Shown here in pieces: positions 3,513 through 11,327 of a DNA stretch of 64,000 nucleotides. Positions within the stretch are counted from its first letter, which is position 1, and each line of letters opens with the position of its first letter. The DNA comes from Anaerolineae bacterium (GTDB lineage Bacteria > Chloroflexota > Anaerolineae > Aggregatilineales > Phototrophicaceae), in assembly GCA_022843385.1 (NCBI GenBank), contig JALHNT010000014.1, positions 62,001 to 126,000 of the forward strand. The letters are read 5' to 3'. Below the pieces are notes generated by a model. That model saw only the letters and a program-made list of their open reading frames with translations, did not search any database and was not told the origin of the DNA. The position numbers and the translations under genes are program-made.

Positions 3513-4496
3513 TCAGCTCTTCACGCCGCCCAGCGTCAGGCCGGAGATCAGATACTTGGACTGCCAGATGAACAGCAGCAGTACCGGTATCGTCACGATG
3601 ACGGAGCCAGCGGCATAACGTGCCCAGTCGGTGTTGAAGGTTCCGATCAGGCTGTTGAGACCCAGTGACCAGGTCCAGCCTTCGGGGTTGAGCAGGATGA
3701 CCTTCGCCACCAGGAATTCAGCCCAGGCAGCCAGGAAATTGAACAGGAAGACAATCGAAAGCGCAGGAGTGGAGAGCGGCAGGATGATGCGCCAGAAGGC
3801 CTCCAGCCGATTACAGCCATCGACCATCGCCGCCTCTTCCAGATCCGGCGGGATGGTGTCGTAGTAGCCTTTCAGAATCCAGATGCTGAATGGCACGGCG
3901 GTTGTGATATAAGCCAGCATCAGACCGGCGATGTTATTGCTCAGACCGAGCTGCGCCACAATGACAAAGATGGGGATAAGCAGCATACCAGCCGGGATCA
4001 TCTGAGTGGTGAGCAGGAAGATCAGCGCCGGACGTCGTCCGGGAAAGCGCCACCGACTGAAGGCATAGGCACCGGTAGCCGACACGACAACGCCAATCGC
4101 TGACACCGTCAGGGTGATGGCGAGGGTGTTCCACAACCACAGCAGGAAATCTTCCTGGGTGAAAATCTCGGTATAGGCGGTCAGCGTTGCGCCGGGGGGA
4201 ATCAAGTCTAAGGAACGGGACAGCAGACCTTCTGTCGGGCGGAGCGAGATGCTGATGAGGCGCAATACCGGATAAACCGAAATCAGCGAATAGAACACGA
4301 GGATAGCATGAAACGGCTTCCAGATCAGCAAGGCTATCCACAGGCCGATGATGGCGTAGCCAACATTCATGCCGTTCAAAATCGTCAGGAGGATGCCGAT
4401 GGCGGCCACTCCCCCGGCGGCGTACTGGCGAATCTGGGGCAGGTTAAGTCCGGCTGTAGCCCCGCCGGGCGGCGCACTGGTGCTTACGGTTGTCAT
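3513..4496 (-). CDS. Carbohydrate ABC transporter permease, MalG-like (CUT1 family)
   Basis: The 327-residue membrane protein belongs to the inner-membrane permease pair of a sugar importer. The conserved cytoplasmic EAA loop is visible as EAAMVDGCNRLEAFWRIILP at about residues 222-241, the site that contacts the ATPase. Several hydrophobic segments surround it, and the end 'SGLTLGGVKS' is typical of MalG relatives. An N-terminal extension of about 60 residues with two extra hydrophobic stretches precedes the standard core. The start overlaps the stop of the MalF-like gene by 4 bases (ATGA). No ATPase gene is in the operon, so a shared MsiK/MalK-type ATPase encoded elsewhere is expected. Confidence 0.9.
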   Translation of the reverse strand: MTTVSTSAPPGGATAGLNLPQIRQYAAGGVAAIGILLTILNGMNVGYAIIGLWIALLIWKPFHAILVFYSLISVYPVLRLISISLRPTEGLLSRSLDLIPPGATLTAYTEIFTQEDFLLWLWNTLAITLTVSAIGVVVSATGAYAFSRWRFPGRRPALIFLLTTQMIPAGMLLIPIFVIVAQLGLSNNIAGLMLAYITTAVPFSIWILKGYYDTIPPDLEEAAMVDGCNRLEAFWRIILPLSTPALSIVFLFNFLAAWAEFLVAKVILLNPEGWTWSLGLNSLIGTFNTDWARYAAGSVIVTIPVLLLFIWQSKYLISGLTLGGVKS

Positions 4497-5611
4497 CGGT
4501 CGTAAATCTCCTTCAGGCCACCGCTCGTGGTAATCCAGATAATCGCAAAGAAGAAGAGGATGATGAAGACAATGATCGAGAAGGCGGCAGCAAAGCCCAA
4601 CTCGTAGGTGGCGGCTGTACCGAAGGCTGCATTATACAGTGCCGTGACGAGGATGTTGGTGCTTTCGCTGGGGCCGCCGCCCGTCATCAGGAAGATCAGA
4701 TCCGCCTTGTTGAACGTCCAGATCACATCGAGCGTAATAGCGGGGATCAGGATGGGTTGCAGCAGCGGCATGGTGATGTTCAGGAAACGCTGCCAGGCAT
4801 TGGCGCCGTCCATCTGGGCCGCTTCATAGTAATCGAGCGAAATGCTTTGCAGACCGCCGAGGAGCATGACCATGTAGAAGGGTACGCCGAGCCAGATGTT
4901 GACAAAGATGACCGCCACAAAGGCCAGCGTCGGGTCATCGAGCCAGCTCACTGGCTGCCCCCCCAACGCCTGGACGATCTCGTTAACAAAGCCATACTGC
5001 GCGTGAAACTCCTGTCGCCAGGTGAGCGCGATAATCACGCCCGGCAGCGCCCAGGGGATGACAATCATGGCGCGATAAATGTTTTTGAACCGTATTTTCT
5101 GGTTCATGATGAGCGCCAGGGTCAAACCAATGGAGAAGTGAAAAATCACATTCACAATCGTCCAGATGGCGGTGCGCCCCAGCAGGACAGGAAAGGTTGA
5201 GTCAGCCGTACTGAGCAAACGCCCCCACCCTTGAATTTCGCCTTCACGATTGACGCGAAAGAAAACATTGGTGAAATTCTTCTGGGCATAATCCAACCCG
5301 TAGAGATGATCGAGGCGACACTCACCACTGAGCGCTGGCGCATAACAATTGAGCGTGTTGCGGCGCAGATCAGAAAAGGCCAACAAGACATTGTAAACCA
5401 GCGGGTAGAGCAGGAACAACACGATGGCAACTGCTGCCGGTGCCAGCAGCGTGTATGGCAGCGCATGTCGTGTTTTGACAATGCGATTCAAAAACTGAAA
5501 CAGACCAAATTGCATCGCCAGCGAGAGGACCACCACCAGGATCAGTACCGGTATGATTAATCCGAGGGTAGTGCCGACTGACTGGAGGGACAAACCACTG
5601 AATTCTTCCAT
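4493..5611 (-). CDS. Carbohydrate ABC transporter permease, MalF-like (CUT1 family)
   Basis: This 372-residue polytopic permease is the partner of the MalG-like protein. It shows N-terminal membrane segments, a periplasmic loop with two cysteines (NCYAPALSGEC), and the EAA motif EAAQMDGANAWQRFLNITMP followed by an 'IPAITLDVIWTFNKADLIF' segment characteristic of MalF/UgpA relatives. It forms the translocation pore for the sugar delivered by the binding protein upstream. It lies 84 bases downstream of the binding-protein stop, with a strong hairpin in the gap, and overlaps the next permease gene by 4 bases. Confidence 0.92.
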   Translation of the reverse strand: MEEFSGLSLQSVGTTLGLIIPVLILVVVLSLAMQFGLFQFLNRIVKTRHALPYTLLAPAAVAIVLFLLYPLVYNVLLAFSDLRRNTLNCYAPALSGECRLDHLYGLDYAQKNFTNVFFRVNREGEIQGWGRLLSTADSTFPVLLGRTAIWTIVNVIFHFSIGLTLALIMNQKIRFKNIYRAMIVIPWALPGVIIALTWRQEFHAQYGFVNEIVQALGGQPVSWLDDPTLAFVAVIFVNIWLGVPFYMVMLLGGLQSISLDYYEAAQMDGANAWQRFLNITMPLLQPILIPAITLDVIWTFNKADLIFLMTGGGPSESTNILVTALYNAAFGTAATYELGFAAAFSIIVFIILFFFAIIWITTSGGLKEIYDR

Positions 5612-5695: not shown

Positions 5696-6943
5696 TTACT
5701 CGAGGCTGGCGAGGCAGTCATCGGCAGCGATCTGGGCTTCCGCAGCGGCATCGGCCGGGGTCATGCTGTTGCTCATGACGGCTTCCAGGTTCGGGCGGAC
5801 GCTGTCCCACATGCAGCGCAGGCTAGCGTCGGCCGGCATACCCATACCACTCTGGAGAGCGGCGTTGCTCATCGCCAGGATGGGATCGGTTTCGGCGCTA
5901 ACTTCAACCGAAGCCACAGCGGGCAGACGGCTGGTGCCGAGCGCGTAAGCGGTAACGGCAGCGCTGTCGGTCGAGAGCCAGGTCACGAAGGATGTGACGG
6001 CTTCCAGCTTTTCGCCTTCAACACCGACCGAGACGCTGATGAACTTGCCAGCGGTGAAGGGCATGGGGCGGCTGCCATTCGGCAGCTCCGGCCAGGGAGC
6101 CAGACCCAGGTTTTCTTCACCCAGCGCCGGGGACACTTCGGTGTTCAGATATTCGCCAATGGCCCAGTCGCCGTTGAGGATCATAGCGACGCTGCCCTCT
6201 TTGAACAGGCTGTCGGCGCAGGCATAGTCACATTCTTCGGGCAGGACGCCATTGGTGAACTTAAGGTCCTGAACGAACTGATAGGCGTTGACCCAGGCTT
6301 CGCTGTCGAGAACCATGTTGCCATCGGCATCATAGGTACCGCCACCGAAACCATGAACGAAGGGCAGGAACCAGAAGGGTTCGTTCAGGTTGTAGGCAAA
6401 GCCCTGAACATCGGGGTTGGCTTCGGTCACAGCCTTGGCGGTGGCAATCAGTTCTTCCCAGGTATTCGGAGCGGTCTCGACCAGGCTCTTGTTGTACATC
6501 AGCATCAGGTGGTTGCCAGCATTGACCGGGATACCAAAGGTCTCGCCGCCGAGCTGGGCTGCGCCGAGGTTGATGGTGTAGGGGGTGACATCAAAAATGC
6601 CGTCCAGCGGCTGGATGACACCGGCATCAACGAACACGCCGATGGCGTCGTTGGGGCCGAGGATCATGTCGGGCAGACCCGAACCGGCCAGACCAGCGGC
6701 CAGAACATCGTTACGCAGAGTCTCGGTTTCCTTCTGCACGATCTCAAGGGTGGAACCGGGAGCAACCGTGTCTGCCCAGACCTGGAACTGTTCGGCCAGG
6801 AACACATCATTATTTTCGCCATCCTGACTCCAGATGACCAGATTGACTGGCTCCATCTGATCCTGCGCCAGCGCGAAGCCGAAGCTCCCAAAGGCGGTCA
6901 AGGCGACCAGCAAGAAAACAAGCAACTTACCGTACTTCATCAT
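5696..6943 (-). CDS. Extracellular sugar-binding protein of ABC transporter (MalE-like)
   Basis: The product is a family 1 solute-binding protein of about 415 residues. The signal peptide (KYGKLLVFLLVALTAFG... ending FALAQDQ) is followed by 'VNLVIWSQDGENNDVFLAEQFQ', the typical first strand of the fold, and motifs such as FKEGSVAMILNGDWAIGEY and a 'TAGKFISVSVGVEGEKLEA' segment. I chose the ATG at 6943 (an adjacent ATG is at 6940) because AGGAAAGGA lies just upstream; an upstream in-frame ATG at 6985 would add 14 residues ahead of the signal peptide. The protein captures an oligosaccharide or maltose-type sugar outside the membrane and hands it to the two permeases downstream. The substrate cannot be told from sequence. 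Confidence 0.93.
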   Translation of the reverse strand: MMKYGKLLVFLLVALTAFGSFGFALAQDQMEPVNLVIWSQDGENNDVFLAEQFQVWADTVAPGSTLEIVQKETETLRNDVLAAGLAGSGLPDMILGPNDAIGVFVDAGVIQPLDGIFDVTPYTINLGAAQLGGETFGIPVNAGNHLMLMYNKSLVETAPNTWEELIATAKAVTEANPDVQGFAYNLNEPFWFLPFVHGFGGGTYDADGNMVLDSEAWVNAYQFVQDLKFTNGVLPEECDYACADSLFKEGSVAMILNGDWAIGEYLNTEVSPALGEENLGLAPWPELPNGSRPMPFTAGKFISVSVGVEGEKLEAVTSFVTWLSTDSAAVTAYALGTSRLPAVASVEVSAETDPILAMSNAALQSGMGMPADASLRCMWDSVRPNLEAVMSNSMTPADAAAEAQIAADDCLASLE

Positions 6944-7022
6944 CAAATTCCTTTCCTCACGGAAACTAACAATAGGAACCAGCATACATGGTAATTTTGA
7001 GCGCTGATTCTCATCTCAGCTT

Positions 7023-7052
7023 AATATAGCGTTGTGGCAAAGGAAATTGCAA
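7023..7052 (-). promoter_or_regulatory. Candidate promoter of the sugar ABC transporter operon
   Basis: On the minus strand TTGCAA (7052-7047), an 18-base spacer and TATATT (7028-7023) precede the binding-protein start by about 80 bases. A second possibility is CATAAT (7094-7089, extended by TTG), which would place the palindrome at 7102-7113 over its -35 region. Confidence 0.5.
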
Positions 7053-7101
7053 GGCGCGTGAGAAGACTTTAATGTTTGCGAGGCTGACATTATGCAAGCC
7101 T

Positions 7102-7113
7102 TGAAACGTTTCA
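7102..7113. promoter_or_regulatory. LacI-family operator, copy 1
   Basis: TGAAACGTTTCA is a perfect 12-base palindrome with the central CG typical of LacI/GalR-family operators. It lies upstream of the sugar ABC transporter operon. No LacI-type regulator gene is in the window. Confidence 0.65.
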
Positions 7114-7129
7114 CACGTGCGGGGCAAAG

Positions 7130-7143
7130 TGTAAACGTTTTCA
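7130..7143. promoter_or_regulatory. LacI-family operator, copy 2
   Basis: TGTAAACGTTTTCA shares the AAACGTTT core with copy 1. The centres of the two sites are 29 bases apart, close to three helical turns, so two repressor dimers could sit on the same face of the DNA. Confidence 0.6.
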
Positions 7144-7162
7144 GAATGTTACATATTATAAT

Positions 7163-7738
7163 TTATTGAATTGTATCGAATTGAGAACCATGCTTCAGAG
7201 GAGGTAGCCAGTTGTCATGTATCTGAGCCAGGTTGAGCGCCTCAGCCCAGTCGGTCACGTAATCGAGCAGCGAACGGGTAAGCTGAACATCACCTTGCAA
7301 GCCTTCGGCGATGACCAGTGACGCTTTGACTACCTTGCATAGGGCGGCAACATCGCGGGATGGCAGCTTTCGATGATGCTGGCGCAGGTAACTGGTCAAG
7401 TGGTCAATGCGCAACAAATGGTACTCGGCTAAACGCTGGGGAGGCGCAATCTGGCTGAGGTCGATGTTGTAGCTCTCCATCACCGTATGCAGGGTATGCT
7501 TGCGAACATCGAACTGGGATTGACGGAGGGCCATCAGACGCTGGTGCAAATCCTCGGCAAAGTCGTAGAGAAGGTCAATGCGTGCCGGATGATTGTCGAT
7601 CTGCTGATGAACGAACTGGACGTAGGTCTGGGCGTTACCCTCGGCCAGACAACGCTCGAAGAGGTCCAGTGCCTGGTTCCGCAGAGCCACTTCTTCGGGA
7701 TTCTCCAGATATTCCGATGGCGCAAAGTCTTCGGTCAT
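7163..7738 (-). CDS. Hypothetical protein, alpha-helical, coupled to DUF971 gene
   Basis: I do not recognise this 191-residue product. It is mostly helical, rich in His, Gln, Leu and acidic residues (e.g. EYLENPEEVALRNQALDLF, LLRIDHLTSYLRQHHRK), and has no signal peptide or membrane segment, so it is probably cytoplasmic. I took the ATG at 7738 as start because it forms an ATGA overlap with the stop of the DUF971 gene, implying translational coupling; an upstream in-frame start (7783) would overlap that gene by 49 bases. The coupling suggests the two proteins act together. Confidence 0.7.
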   Translation of the reverse strand: MTEDFAPSEYLENPEEVALRNQALDLFERCLAEGNAQTYVQFVHQQIDNHPARIDLLYDFAEDLHQRLMALRQSQFDVRKHTLHTVMESYNIDLSQIAPPQRLAEYHLLRIDHLTSYLRQHHRKLPSRDVAALCKVVKASLVIAEGLQGDVQLTRSLLDYVTDWAEALNLAQIHDNWLPPLKHGSQFDTIQ

Positions 7739-8070
7739 TCGCTTTTTTCCTGTGTGGGACACAAGTGCCACAGGTAGTCCCACGTATAGATGCCGGTATG
7801 ATGTCCATCATCCCAATTGGGTTGCAAGGCATAGTTGCCGATGCGTTCAATGGATTGGATGGCATAGGAGCGCTTGGGCTTTAGGACGAGAATGTTCTCT
7901 GGGTCAAACTGCTTTCCCATAAACTGATGCCCGCCGCGGCACTCAACGCAAGGACAGGCTTCGCGCAGTTGCGACAACGGATACTGGCACACCTGCTCAC
8001 CATTCCAGGTGATTTCCAGGTAGCCCTGCTGCTTGTTTAGGGTGATGGCGGTTGGTCGTGGCGAATTCAT
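7735..8070 (-). CDS. DUF971 family protein (GBBH-like N-terminal domain)
   Basis: This 111-residue protein is a stand-alone copy of the domain found at the N-terminus of gamma-butyrobetaine hydroxylase. Visible landmarks are the first strands 'LEITWNGEQVCQYPLSQLR', the cysteine-bearing segment ACPCVECRGGHQ (metal-binding type) and the closing 'GNYALQPNWDDGHHTGIYTW' motif. Stand-alone DUF971 proteins are linked in other bacteria to Fe-S cluster and Mrp/ApbC-type proteins; the role here is inferred only. It is the first gene of a two-gene minus-strand operon. Confidence 0.88.
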   Translation of the reverse strand: MNSPRPTAITLNKQQGYLEITWNGEQVCQYPLSQLREACPCVECRGGHQFMGKQFDPENILVLKPKRSYAIQSIERIGNYALQPNWDDGHHTGIYTWDYLWHLCPTQEKSE

Positions 8071-8936: not shown

Positions 8937-11327
8937 ATGAAAACCCTGCGCCGCTGGCAGCTCGACTCAACCCGCCCTATCTGTCTGACGCTGGCGGCTG
9001 ATGCCCGCCTGAGCCAGACCGATTATCATGACGATCAGGTATGGGAATTGTCGCTCGGCAGCGGCGAGTCGCCAGGGCTGCAATTGCAGACGCGCTACGG
9101 TGGGCGCGCCGGGTTAGCGGCATTGGTGCCGATGTGGAACCACGATGGACGAGCGATCTATCAGGCGCAGGCTTATGCCCATCCGCCCTATGTGACCGGT
9201 CTCGCGCCGGGTTATCTCCGCGTGCAAGCCACGCTGACGCCGCAGCTCGCCCTGCTGGCCGAATACTGGGCCATCGACAGTCACACGGTTGGCATTCAGT
9301 TTACACTGGCGAACGCTCATGTGCAGCCGACAAAGGTGCAGCTTGACCTGATCGCCTTCATCGGCAGCAGCGGTAAAGAACAGAAGCTACACCTCATTGG
9401 GTTGGAGACCGGTAAGCCGGCGCTGGGGCTGGGGAAAATTGGCAACCTGATGCCGACGATTGTGCTGGAAGGCGCGACAGCGGACGGCAGCAGCCCCAAA
9501 CTGAGCCGAGCATTCACTATTCCGGGGCGCAAAAAAATCACGCTCCGCCTCGTCCATGCCGGTCTGACCAGCGAGGCCCTGTCGTTGCAACGAGCGCATG
9601 AGGCGTTGAAACTGGATTGGGCAAACGGATTGAAGCAGATGGAGGCGGCAGCGCAGGCCATCCCTTCCATCGAGACCGGCGACGAAGACCTGGACGCGAC
9701 CATCGCCTTCGCTTACCGTGAACTGGCGCATTCCTATATGAAACCCACCGCCAGCCTGCCCTATCCGTCGGTGACGCTGACGCGGGGTTCGGCGCACGGC
9801 TATCACAATGCGGCTGACAAAGCCTGGAGCGGGCAATCGGCAAGCTGGGCTTACCTGGAAGGGTTGGCGATGGCCGCAGTCGATCCGGCGCTGGCACAGG
9901 GACTCATCCGCAATTATCTGGCGGTGCAGCAACCGGATGGGTGGATTGATGCCAAGCCCGGTCTGAGCGGACAGAAGCAGGGTGATCTGTGTATGCCGAT
10001 TCTGGCGCGCCTGGCATGGGGCATCTTTCAGTACAGCGACGATGCCGCCTTTGTGAAAGACGTGTTTCCCGGCCTGTTGAAATTCTTCGAGCGCTGGCTG
10101 AAACCCGATCTGGATCGGGATGGCGATGGCGTGCCGGAATGGCAGTCGGAAGCACAAACCGGCTCGGTCTTCACGCCGACCTTCGCCACCTGGCAAGCCT
10201 GGGGCGGCGGCGCGAATATCCGACTGGTCGAGTCGCCAGACTTGCTGGCCTACCTGATTTCAGAAGCGCGTTCGCTGAAAGAGATGGCCTATTTCCTGCG
10301 CGACACGGCACAGGAACAGCGGATCGAGTCGATCTATCAACGGCTGGTATCCAGCCTGGAAAGCCTGTGGGATGCCCAGTCCCAGCGCTATCGTTATCGC
10401 GATCGCGACTCTCATCAGACCACCGCCAGCGTGACGGTGGTTTCGGATGCGCGGGCCGGCGAGCCACTGCTATTGGCGGAGAAGTTATCCCCGCCGAACC
10501 GTCTGATCGTCCGCGTTTCGGGTGGGGTGAATCTGCTGCCGCGCATGACGCTGACACTCGATGGCCTGGATGCTGCCGGACAGTCCCTGCATGAGACCGT
10601 CGCTGGCGATGCTTTCGTCTGGGCTGGCGGGCGCGGCGTTTACACCAGCGAACACCTCTACGCGCAGATTGATCGGGTGCAGTTCGAGGGATTGAGCCGG
10701 GTCTATCGGGTTGATATTCAGACGATGGACACGACACGGCTGGACATCAATCATCTGCTGCCGTTGTGGTCAACCGGACTGACAGCCGCGCGCGCCGAGA
10801 CTCTGATTGGCCTGCTGAACCATCCCGATCATTTCTGGCGCAGCAGCGGCGTGAGCGTGAACTCGGCACAGGATTCCCACTTTGACCCGGCTAATGCCGA
10901 GGGCAGCGGCGGGGTATGGCCGTTCTGGCTGACGCTGATGGGCGAAGCGCTGATCGAAGCCGGACACATGAAGCAGGCGGCGGATTTACTCAAGCGGCTG
11001 CTGCGGGTCCAGACCGAAGTACTGAAAGCCGACAAACACTTCAGCGAGTTCTATCATGCTGATCAGCCAAAGGGGTTGGGTGAACCCGGCCATGCTGCCG
11101 GGATCGTGCCGCTGCACCTGATGCTGCGGGTGTGGGGTGTGCGCATCATCTCTCCCAGGCGGGTCTGGACAGGCAGCGCCTTTGACTGGGATCAACCAGT
11201 GACAATTTCCCGTCATGGTGTGACGGTGCAGCGCAGTCAGCAGCACACCAAAATCCAGTTTCCTTCGGGTCATCAAACCCAGATCGTCAATGGGGACTGG
11301 CAAGAGGTGATCGATGCAGGTTCGTGA
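8937..11327 (+). CDS. Six-hairpin glycosidase-like protein (amylo-alpha-1,6-glucosidase/GH15-GH63 clan type)
   Basis: The 796-residue protein has no signal peptide. Residues 1-250 are beta-rich, and a long helical region of the (alpha/alpha)6-barrel type follows: 'YLEGLAMAAVDPALAQGLIRNYLAVQQPDGWIDAKPG', 'FFERWLKPDLDRDGDGVPEWQ' and 'GGVWPFWLTLMGEALIEAGH' are typical of glycogen-debranching/glucoamylase-type barrels, where an acid follows the substrate-binding loops. A beta-rich insertion (residues about 495-600) interrupts the barrel, and the C-terminus is again beta-like. The exact family and substrate cannot be fixed here; an intracellular glycoside hydrolase acting on imported oligosaccharides is a reasonable inference. 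Its last 14 bases overlap the next gene, a histidine kinase. Confidence 0.75.
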   Translation: MKTLRRWQLDSTRPICLTLAADARLSQTDYHDDQVWELSLGSGESPGLQLQTRYGGRAGLAALVPMWNHDGRAIYQAQAYAHPPYVTGLAPGYLRVQATLTPQLALLAEYWAIDSHTVGIQFTLANAHVQPTKVQLDLIAFIGSSGKEQKLHLIGLETGKPALGLGKIGNLMPTIVLEGATADGSSPKLSRAFTIPGRKKITLRLVHAGLTSEALSLQRAHEALKLDWANGLKQMEAAAQAIPSIETGDEDLDATIAFAYRELAHSYMKPTASLPYPSVTLTRGSAHGYHNAADKAWSGQSASWAYLEGLAMAAVDPALAQGLIRNYLAVQQPDGWIDAKPGLSGQKQGDLCMPILARLAWGIFQYSDDAAFVKDVFPGLLKFFERWLKPDLDRDGDGVPEWQSEAQTGSVFTPTFATWQAWGGGANIRLVESPDLLAYLISEARSLKEMAYFLRDTAQEQRIESIYQRLVSSLESLWDAQSQRYRYRDRDSHQTTASVTVVSDARAGEPLLLAEKLSPPNRLIVRVSGGVNLLPRMTLTLDGLDAAGQSLHETVAGDAFVWAGGRGVYTSEHLYAQIDRVQFEGLSRVYRVDIQTMDTTRLDINHLLPLWSTGLTAARAETLIGLLNHPDHFWRSSGVSVNSAQDSHFDPANAEGSGGVWPFWLTLMGEALIEAGHMKQAADLLKRLLRVQTEVLKADKHFSEFYHADQPKGLGEPGHAAGIVPLHLMLRVWGVRIISPRRVWTGSAFDWDQPVTISRHGVTVQRSQQHTKIQFPSGHQTQIVNGDWQEVIDAGS

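Follow-up and report, generated by a model that had tools for sequence, protein, structure and literature searches.

The DNA analysed here, referred to as the window, is a stretch of 64,000 nucleotides from a Chloroflexota genome (G000, 7.85 Mb, assembly 95.7% complete) whose closest relatives are titled Chloroflexi, Anaerolineae or Aggregatilineales; the comparison set comprised 61 genomes. The region of interest is the spacer that separates a gene at 7163-7783 from a three-gene MalE/F/G-like ABC operon (6943-3513), all of these genes being on the minus strand. All NCBIfam matches of the operon lie below their cut-offs. The features of the region are the following:

3513..4496, minus strand: malG-like permease (Pfam BPD_transp_1; top NCBIfam match MalG, under its cut-off)
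4493..5611, minus strand: malF-like permease (Pfam BPD_transp_1; top NCBIfam match MalF, under its cut-off)
5696..6943, minus strand: malE-like sugar-binding protein of an ABC transporter (Pfam SBP_bac_8/SBP_bac_1; top NCBIfam match MalE, under its cut-off)
7023..7052, minus strand: candidate promoter P1, TTGCAA-18-TATATT, the sole site over the tool threshold in 6800-7400 and the best score (12.8) in a relaxed scan
7102..7113, no strand: site 1, TGAAACGTTTCA, a perfect 12-bp palindrome with a CG centre, predicted LacI-family operator
7130..7143, no strand: site 2, TGTAAACGTTTTCA, 14 bp with one mismatched pair, LacI-like, a weaker candidate operator
7155..7160, minus strand: candidate promoter P2, a perfect -10 hexamer TATAAT with a poor -35, proposed from the sequence only in an AT-rich stretch
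7163..7783, minus strand: family-less upstream gene, ending 19 bp before site 2

Profile searches of the 7163-7783 gene against Pfam and NCBIfam returned zero family matches; a homologue (42%) in G009 (L272) lies upstream of malE, with one gene in between. Near the malEFG-like operon, on the opposite strand, the window also carries a large MGH1-like glycosidase (8937-11327, Pfam PF22422).

An earlier note on this DNA had described two LacI-type palindromes, 29 bp apart, with a common core. Both palindromes are present, one perfect and the other with a single broken pair, and their centre-to-centre distance is indeed 29 bp. The core, AAACGTTT, is found in both sites, but the likeness ends there: the TG/CA arms are offset by one base relative to the CG centre, and the two sites therefore share no motif beyond the core. 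AAACGTTT occurs only twice in the window, once in each palindrome, against an expectation of 0.42 by dinucleotide shuffling; at least two occurrences anywhere in the window were seen in 9 of 100 shuffles. The even, CG-centred palindrome given as the mark of LacI operators in PMC4052901 is perfect over 12 bp in site 1 and has one pair broken in site 2. The same paper places more than 75% of LacI-family operators 30-140 bp before the start codon, a distance that is typical, not defining; both sites lie outside it, with ~164 bp between the centre of site 1 and the malE start adopted in this analysis, and site 2 29 bp farther upstream.

A check of the motif's frequency, suggested together with the palindromes, gave a divided result. 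Exact TGAAACGTTTCA is at control level in G000 (one occurrence, and one in the reversed control), and TGTAAACGTTTTCA with up to two mismatches is not enriched there (18 forward and 13 reverse, versus 17 and 10 in the control). Above control are TGAAACGTTTCA with one mismatch (21 versus 7 in G000) and pairs of AAACGTTT with a gap of 5-35 bp (two in G000 versus none in the reversed control; 41 versus 7 over the 61 genomes, summed forward columns). Exact TGAAACGTTTCA across the 61 genomes amounts to 36 versus 9 in the controls (summed counts). The second AAACGTTT pair of G000, at C36:340-364, lies 46 bp before a GH65 gene, after which come genes for a sugar-binding protein and two permeases; both pairs of this genome thus precede sugar ABC operons. 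The context was examined for 31 of the 36 exact 12-mers (30 loci): 17 of these, the window included, are upstream of LacI, SBP/ABC, amylase or phosphorylase genes, and several of the remainder fall at ATG AAA CGT TTC start codons or within genes. In the 11 orthologous malE upstream regions of relatives, TGAAACGTTTCA is found in none and the site pair is absent from all.

The earlier note had also called for a LacI regulator of matching specificity. Among the 22 LacI-type genes found in G000, one such candidate emerged, purely by comparison: the C30 LacI (G000:C30:42560-43582), whose recognition helix, SIATVSYVLN, is that of relatives with TGAAACGTTTCA 13 bp before a LacI gene, and which is the sole LacI of SIATVSY(V/A)LN type in the genome. 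The relatives concerned are G048, G053 and G058, in which the exact 12-mer precedes a C30-type LacI gene near GH65 phosphorylase genes; the helix is SIATVSYVLN in the first two and SIATVSYALN in G058. At GH65 operons this group of regulators is accompanied by TTAAACGTTTAA. At the same locus in G053 and G058, TTAAACGTTTAA stands before the SBP gene, and one regulator type therefore appears to use both forms. In G043, G049 and G054, where TGAAACGTTTCA lies 34-56 bp ahead of SBP-permease genes, it goes with a related helix, SVTTVSYVLN. A link between helix and site is supported by the LacI genes of L308, L309 and L310, which are C30-type relatives (44-45% identical) with a different recognition helix, SYQTVSKVLR: in all three the upstream palindrome is AGGCGAACGTTCGCCT, at 38-43 bp.

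Two other kinds of regulator were considered and rejected. LacI genes with the helix SVTTASYALN, SITTASYALN or SVTAASYALN accompany the same 12-mer in five relatives, and GTGAAACGTTTCA is found between a GH94-type gene and such a divergent LacI gene at L239, L240, L241, L244 and L248. The GH94 assignment is by Pfam for one of these five loci; for the other four, as for the gene name at L251, it is presumed from the sequence. The SVTTASYALN type was rejected as the binder of site 1, its helix not being among the 22 LacI found in G000. The C24 LacI (SVTTVSNVVR) has no palindrome within 450 bp upstream.

G000 has one GH65 operon with ABC genes (GH65 by Pfam), on contig C36. The C30 LacI gene is linked neither to this operon nor to the malEFG-like operon and has no such palindrome upstream; its orthologues in the same genus likewise lack a site directly upstream of their own gene. 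In several genomes of that genus the orthologous LacI gene lies within or near the GH65 operon. Among 29 GH65 loci of relatives, 18 have a TTAANCGNTTA palindrome upstream, and the remaining 11 have a LacI gene whose end lies 27-99 bp ahead of GH65. A LacI gene sits beside GH65 in 14 relatives (before it in 12, after it in 2), and its best match in G000 is the C30 LacI in every one of the 14, at 41-68% identity. Across the 61 genomes, 35 have both a C30 orthologue and GH65, 22 have neither, three have GH65 only and one has the LacI only (Fisher 2e-12, kinship not corrected for); this table hinges on E-value cut-offs of 1e-150 and 1e-75, and G023 is scored in it as being without a C30-type LacI though one precedes its GH65. 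A hand count found 27 genomes among the 35 in which a single contig carries the two genes within ~10 kb of each other.

The sites were scored with a combined 16-bp matrix that excludes G000 itself: its training set is 26 sites of relatives, 19 of them GH65 sites and 7 of the TGAAACGTTTCA form. Site 1 ranks first of 63,985 window positions, with 16.8 bits against 9.8 for the next position, a rank that is partly by construction, the identical 12-mer being present in those 7 training sites; site 2 scores -1.6 bits (rank 50). With a matrix of the 19 GH65 sites only, site 1 scores 5.3 bits and ranks second in the window behind a position at 5.7, which is under the 99th percentile (5.8) of best scores in 350-bp windows of G000; site 2 is outside the top 15 of the window. 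Over 524 kb of G000, a sample enriched in near-matches by selection and including a small overlap, the combined matrix gives 24.6 and 19.7 to the two C36 sites, and 26 other positions reach at least 10, the best of them 17.0.

The region upstream of malE was scored in the same way in related genomes, whose values are hence not independent (G005 and G006 are near relatives). With the combined matrix, the genomes that have the regulator score 18.0, 16.8 (the window), 16.0, 16.0, 7.9, 7.4, 1.1 and 1.1, and those that lack it 2.8, 1.2, 0.3 and -4.0. Scores of 16-18 bits are thus found in four of eight regulator-bearing genomes (three of seven excluding the window), at shifting positions, and in none of the four lacking the regulator. 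The GH65-only matrix gives 17.7, 12.2, 12.2, 6.0, 5.3 (the window), 4.7, -1.4 and -8.2 with the regulator, and 1.9, -1.1, -3.9 and -5.2 without.

Sequence comparison makes it probable that site 1 functions as an operator; it would be of a known kind, and its likely repressor can be named. The reading we favour, and consider fairly likely, is that site 1 is the operator of the SIATVSYVLN-type LacI repressor C30, which would control both the GH65-ABC operon and the malEFG-like operon; we hold it a little less firmly given that the top matrix rank owes something to the way the matrix was built. The main target of the repressor would be the GH65 disaccharide-phosphorylase and ABC operon (G000:C36), with the malEFG-like operon of the window also under its control. 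When sugar is absent, a C30 dimer on site 1 would lower transcription of the operon, and a maltose-type sugar, or a product thereof, would release it. Site 2 would be an accessory site at most, or the site of another regulator. The earlier note's proposal of a LacI-type operator before the sugar ABC operon is backed by comparison for site 1, and the sugar-relieved repression that it expected is the usual logic of such sites. The type of site, the regulator family, the regulator candidate and the regulon are supported by comparison; we infer that the repressor does bind, that it represses and does not activate, what the inducer would be and which promoter would be affected. Several findings speak against the C30 reading. 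Half of the eight regulator-bearing genomes score just 1.1-7.9 upstream of malE, the exact 12-mer is missing from all 11 orthologous regions, and the C30 gene is unlinked and has no site of its own. The 12-mer is, moreover, shared by the SVTTASYALN, SITTASYALN and SVTAASYALN LacI, none of which is among the 22 found in an assembly that is 95.7% complete.

The TTG-CATAAT promoter that had been proposed to overlap the site is not supported: CATAAT (7094-7089) has no good -35 and is outside the top eight in a relaxed scan of 6944-7260, in which P1 does better. Promoters of the form TTGCNN-17/18-TATNNT are found in 6 of 12 malE upstream regions, the window included; the five relatives (of 11) are G001, G008, G011, G012 and G014, all with a spacer of 17. 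Relative to the start expected of P1, site 1 lies at ~-91 and site 2 at ~-120, and a site ~91 bp upstream would be in an unusual position for simple blocking. Relative to P2, site 2 would lie at ~+11 and site 1 at ~+40, a classical blocking position; the TATAAT of P2 may be a chance occurrence.

An alternative that overlaps the C30 explanation, and that we regard as possible but unlikely, is that two LacI regulators act here, C30 at site 1 and another (such as C77 or C47) at site 2, which would make the operon respond to two sugar signals together. Read in reverse, site 2 is TGAAAACGTTTACA; this agrees with TGAAAGCGCTTACA, found upstream of the LacI gene of C77, save for the pair beside the centre, and is two bases off TGCAAACGTTTGCA before the C47 LacI gene; site 2 also resembles TTGAAAGCGCTTACAA before the C77 gene. 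A few matching bases, however, are weak evidence, and the clusters headed by the LacI genes of C77 and C47 resemble peptide-type ABC systems, not maltose ones; we take these, from their sequence, to be Dpp-like. The two clusters (L090 on C47 and L091 on C77) are similar to each other, and in both a separate palindrome precedes the LacI gene. A specific form of this arrangement, in which mixed operators of the C30 and the C77/C47 type let two sugar signals gate maltose-type uptake, with site 1 acting ~90 bp upstream of the promoter start and not by simple blocking, seems to us rather doubtful.

Similarly improbable is cooperative binding of both palindromes by a single LacI-type repressor, with two dimers on the same helix face over the promoter. 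In its favour, AAACGTTT pairs are enriched in the order, many of them before LacI-SBP-permease operons, and the C36 pair likewise precedes a sugar ABC operon; PMC4052901 describes tandem LacI sites as common and gives peaks in their spacing at 13, 22 and 32 bp. The spacing in the window, which had been described as close to three helical turns and suited to cooperative binding, is in fact 2.76 turns at 10.5 bp per turn. In a survey of 20 of 29 loci of the order, pairs next to LacI genes were found at 17. The spacing is 31-34 bp in 16 of the 17, which agrees with the published 32-bp peak; the 29 bp of the window departs from it, as from the peak at ~22 bp. Site 2 fits the site-1 regulator badly, scoring -1.6 under its matrix, and the pair is missing from all orthologous upstream regions. 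On spacing, matrix score and conservation, a cooperative three-turn pair was ruled out as the leading model. The C36 pair is 17 bp apart, and constant spacing is therefore not a trait of this regulon.

AAACGTTT pairs 31-34 bp apart are found directly before SITTVSRAL/SVTTVSRAL LacI genes at L155, L157, L164, L167, L169, L171, L173, L174, L175, L177 and others; those viewed in wider context head LacI-SBP-permease operons. No LacI of G000 is more than 40% identical to the SITTVSRAL regulators; they were rejected as the binder, and the missing match counts against the cooperative model.

Least probable is that these are functionless chance palindromes in an AT-rich spacer. The lack of conservation at malE of orthologues, the control-level 12-mer in G000 and the unenriched site-2 pattern fit this. 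Against it stand the closeness of the two AAACGTTT copies, which lie within 29 bp upstream of a sugar operon; the excess of the 12-mer over 61 genomes, roughly half of the examined copies being located at LacI or sugar genes; and the rank of site 1 (first or second) under relatives' matrices.

The C30 reading can be set beside known systems. Cra (FruR) of E. coli is a member of the LacI family. According to PMC11157272 and PMC4521459, its operator, as in the fruB proximal site, has the core TGAAACGTTTCA, a 12-bp core identical to site 1. In Chloroflexota the 12-mer instead accompanies local regulators whose neighbours are phosphorylase and sugar-transport genes, and the likeness to Cra meant here is that of the operator core. 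MalR-like maltose regulators, as described in PMC4052901, share the LacI family, the even CG-centred palindrome and the presumed targets, maltose-type transport and a GH65 phosphorylase; of these targets, the MalE/F/G-like operon is below NCBIfam cut-offs and GH65 is assigned by Pfam. The system proposed here differs in that the regulator gene is unlinked to its targets in G000 and the operators are TTAAACGTTTAA and TGAAACGTTTCA, and the comparison implies no orthology to MalR of Firmicutes. Tandem LacI operators ~32 bp apart likewise place two AAACGTTT palindromes in a single intergenic region, but the window pair is 29 bp apart, with a degenerate second site, and is not conserved. A literature search for maltose phosphorylase, the LacI family, beta-phosphoglucomutase and an operator together found nothing.

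The analysis proposes a regulator and a regulon, the malEFG-like and GH65 phosphorylase operons, in mostly uncultured Chloroflexota, and ties recognition-helix types to operators in a form that is directly testable. The general view of LacI control is unchanged, the control element being of an ordinary kind. A further literature search, for LacI-family proteins with two HTH or a duplicated DNA-binding domain, found none. Such an arrangement was observed upstream of GH65 in three relatives: the LacI genes at L265:4334-5515 (G053) and L266:3982-5148 (G058) have two tandem N-terminal LacI-type HTH, with two Pfam LacI stretches each, and that at L267:4366-5532 (G048) is likewise a tandem double, as judged by sequence.
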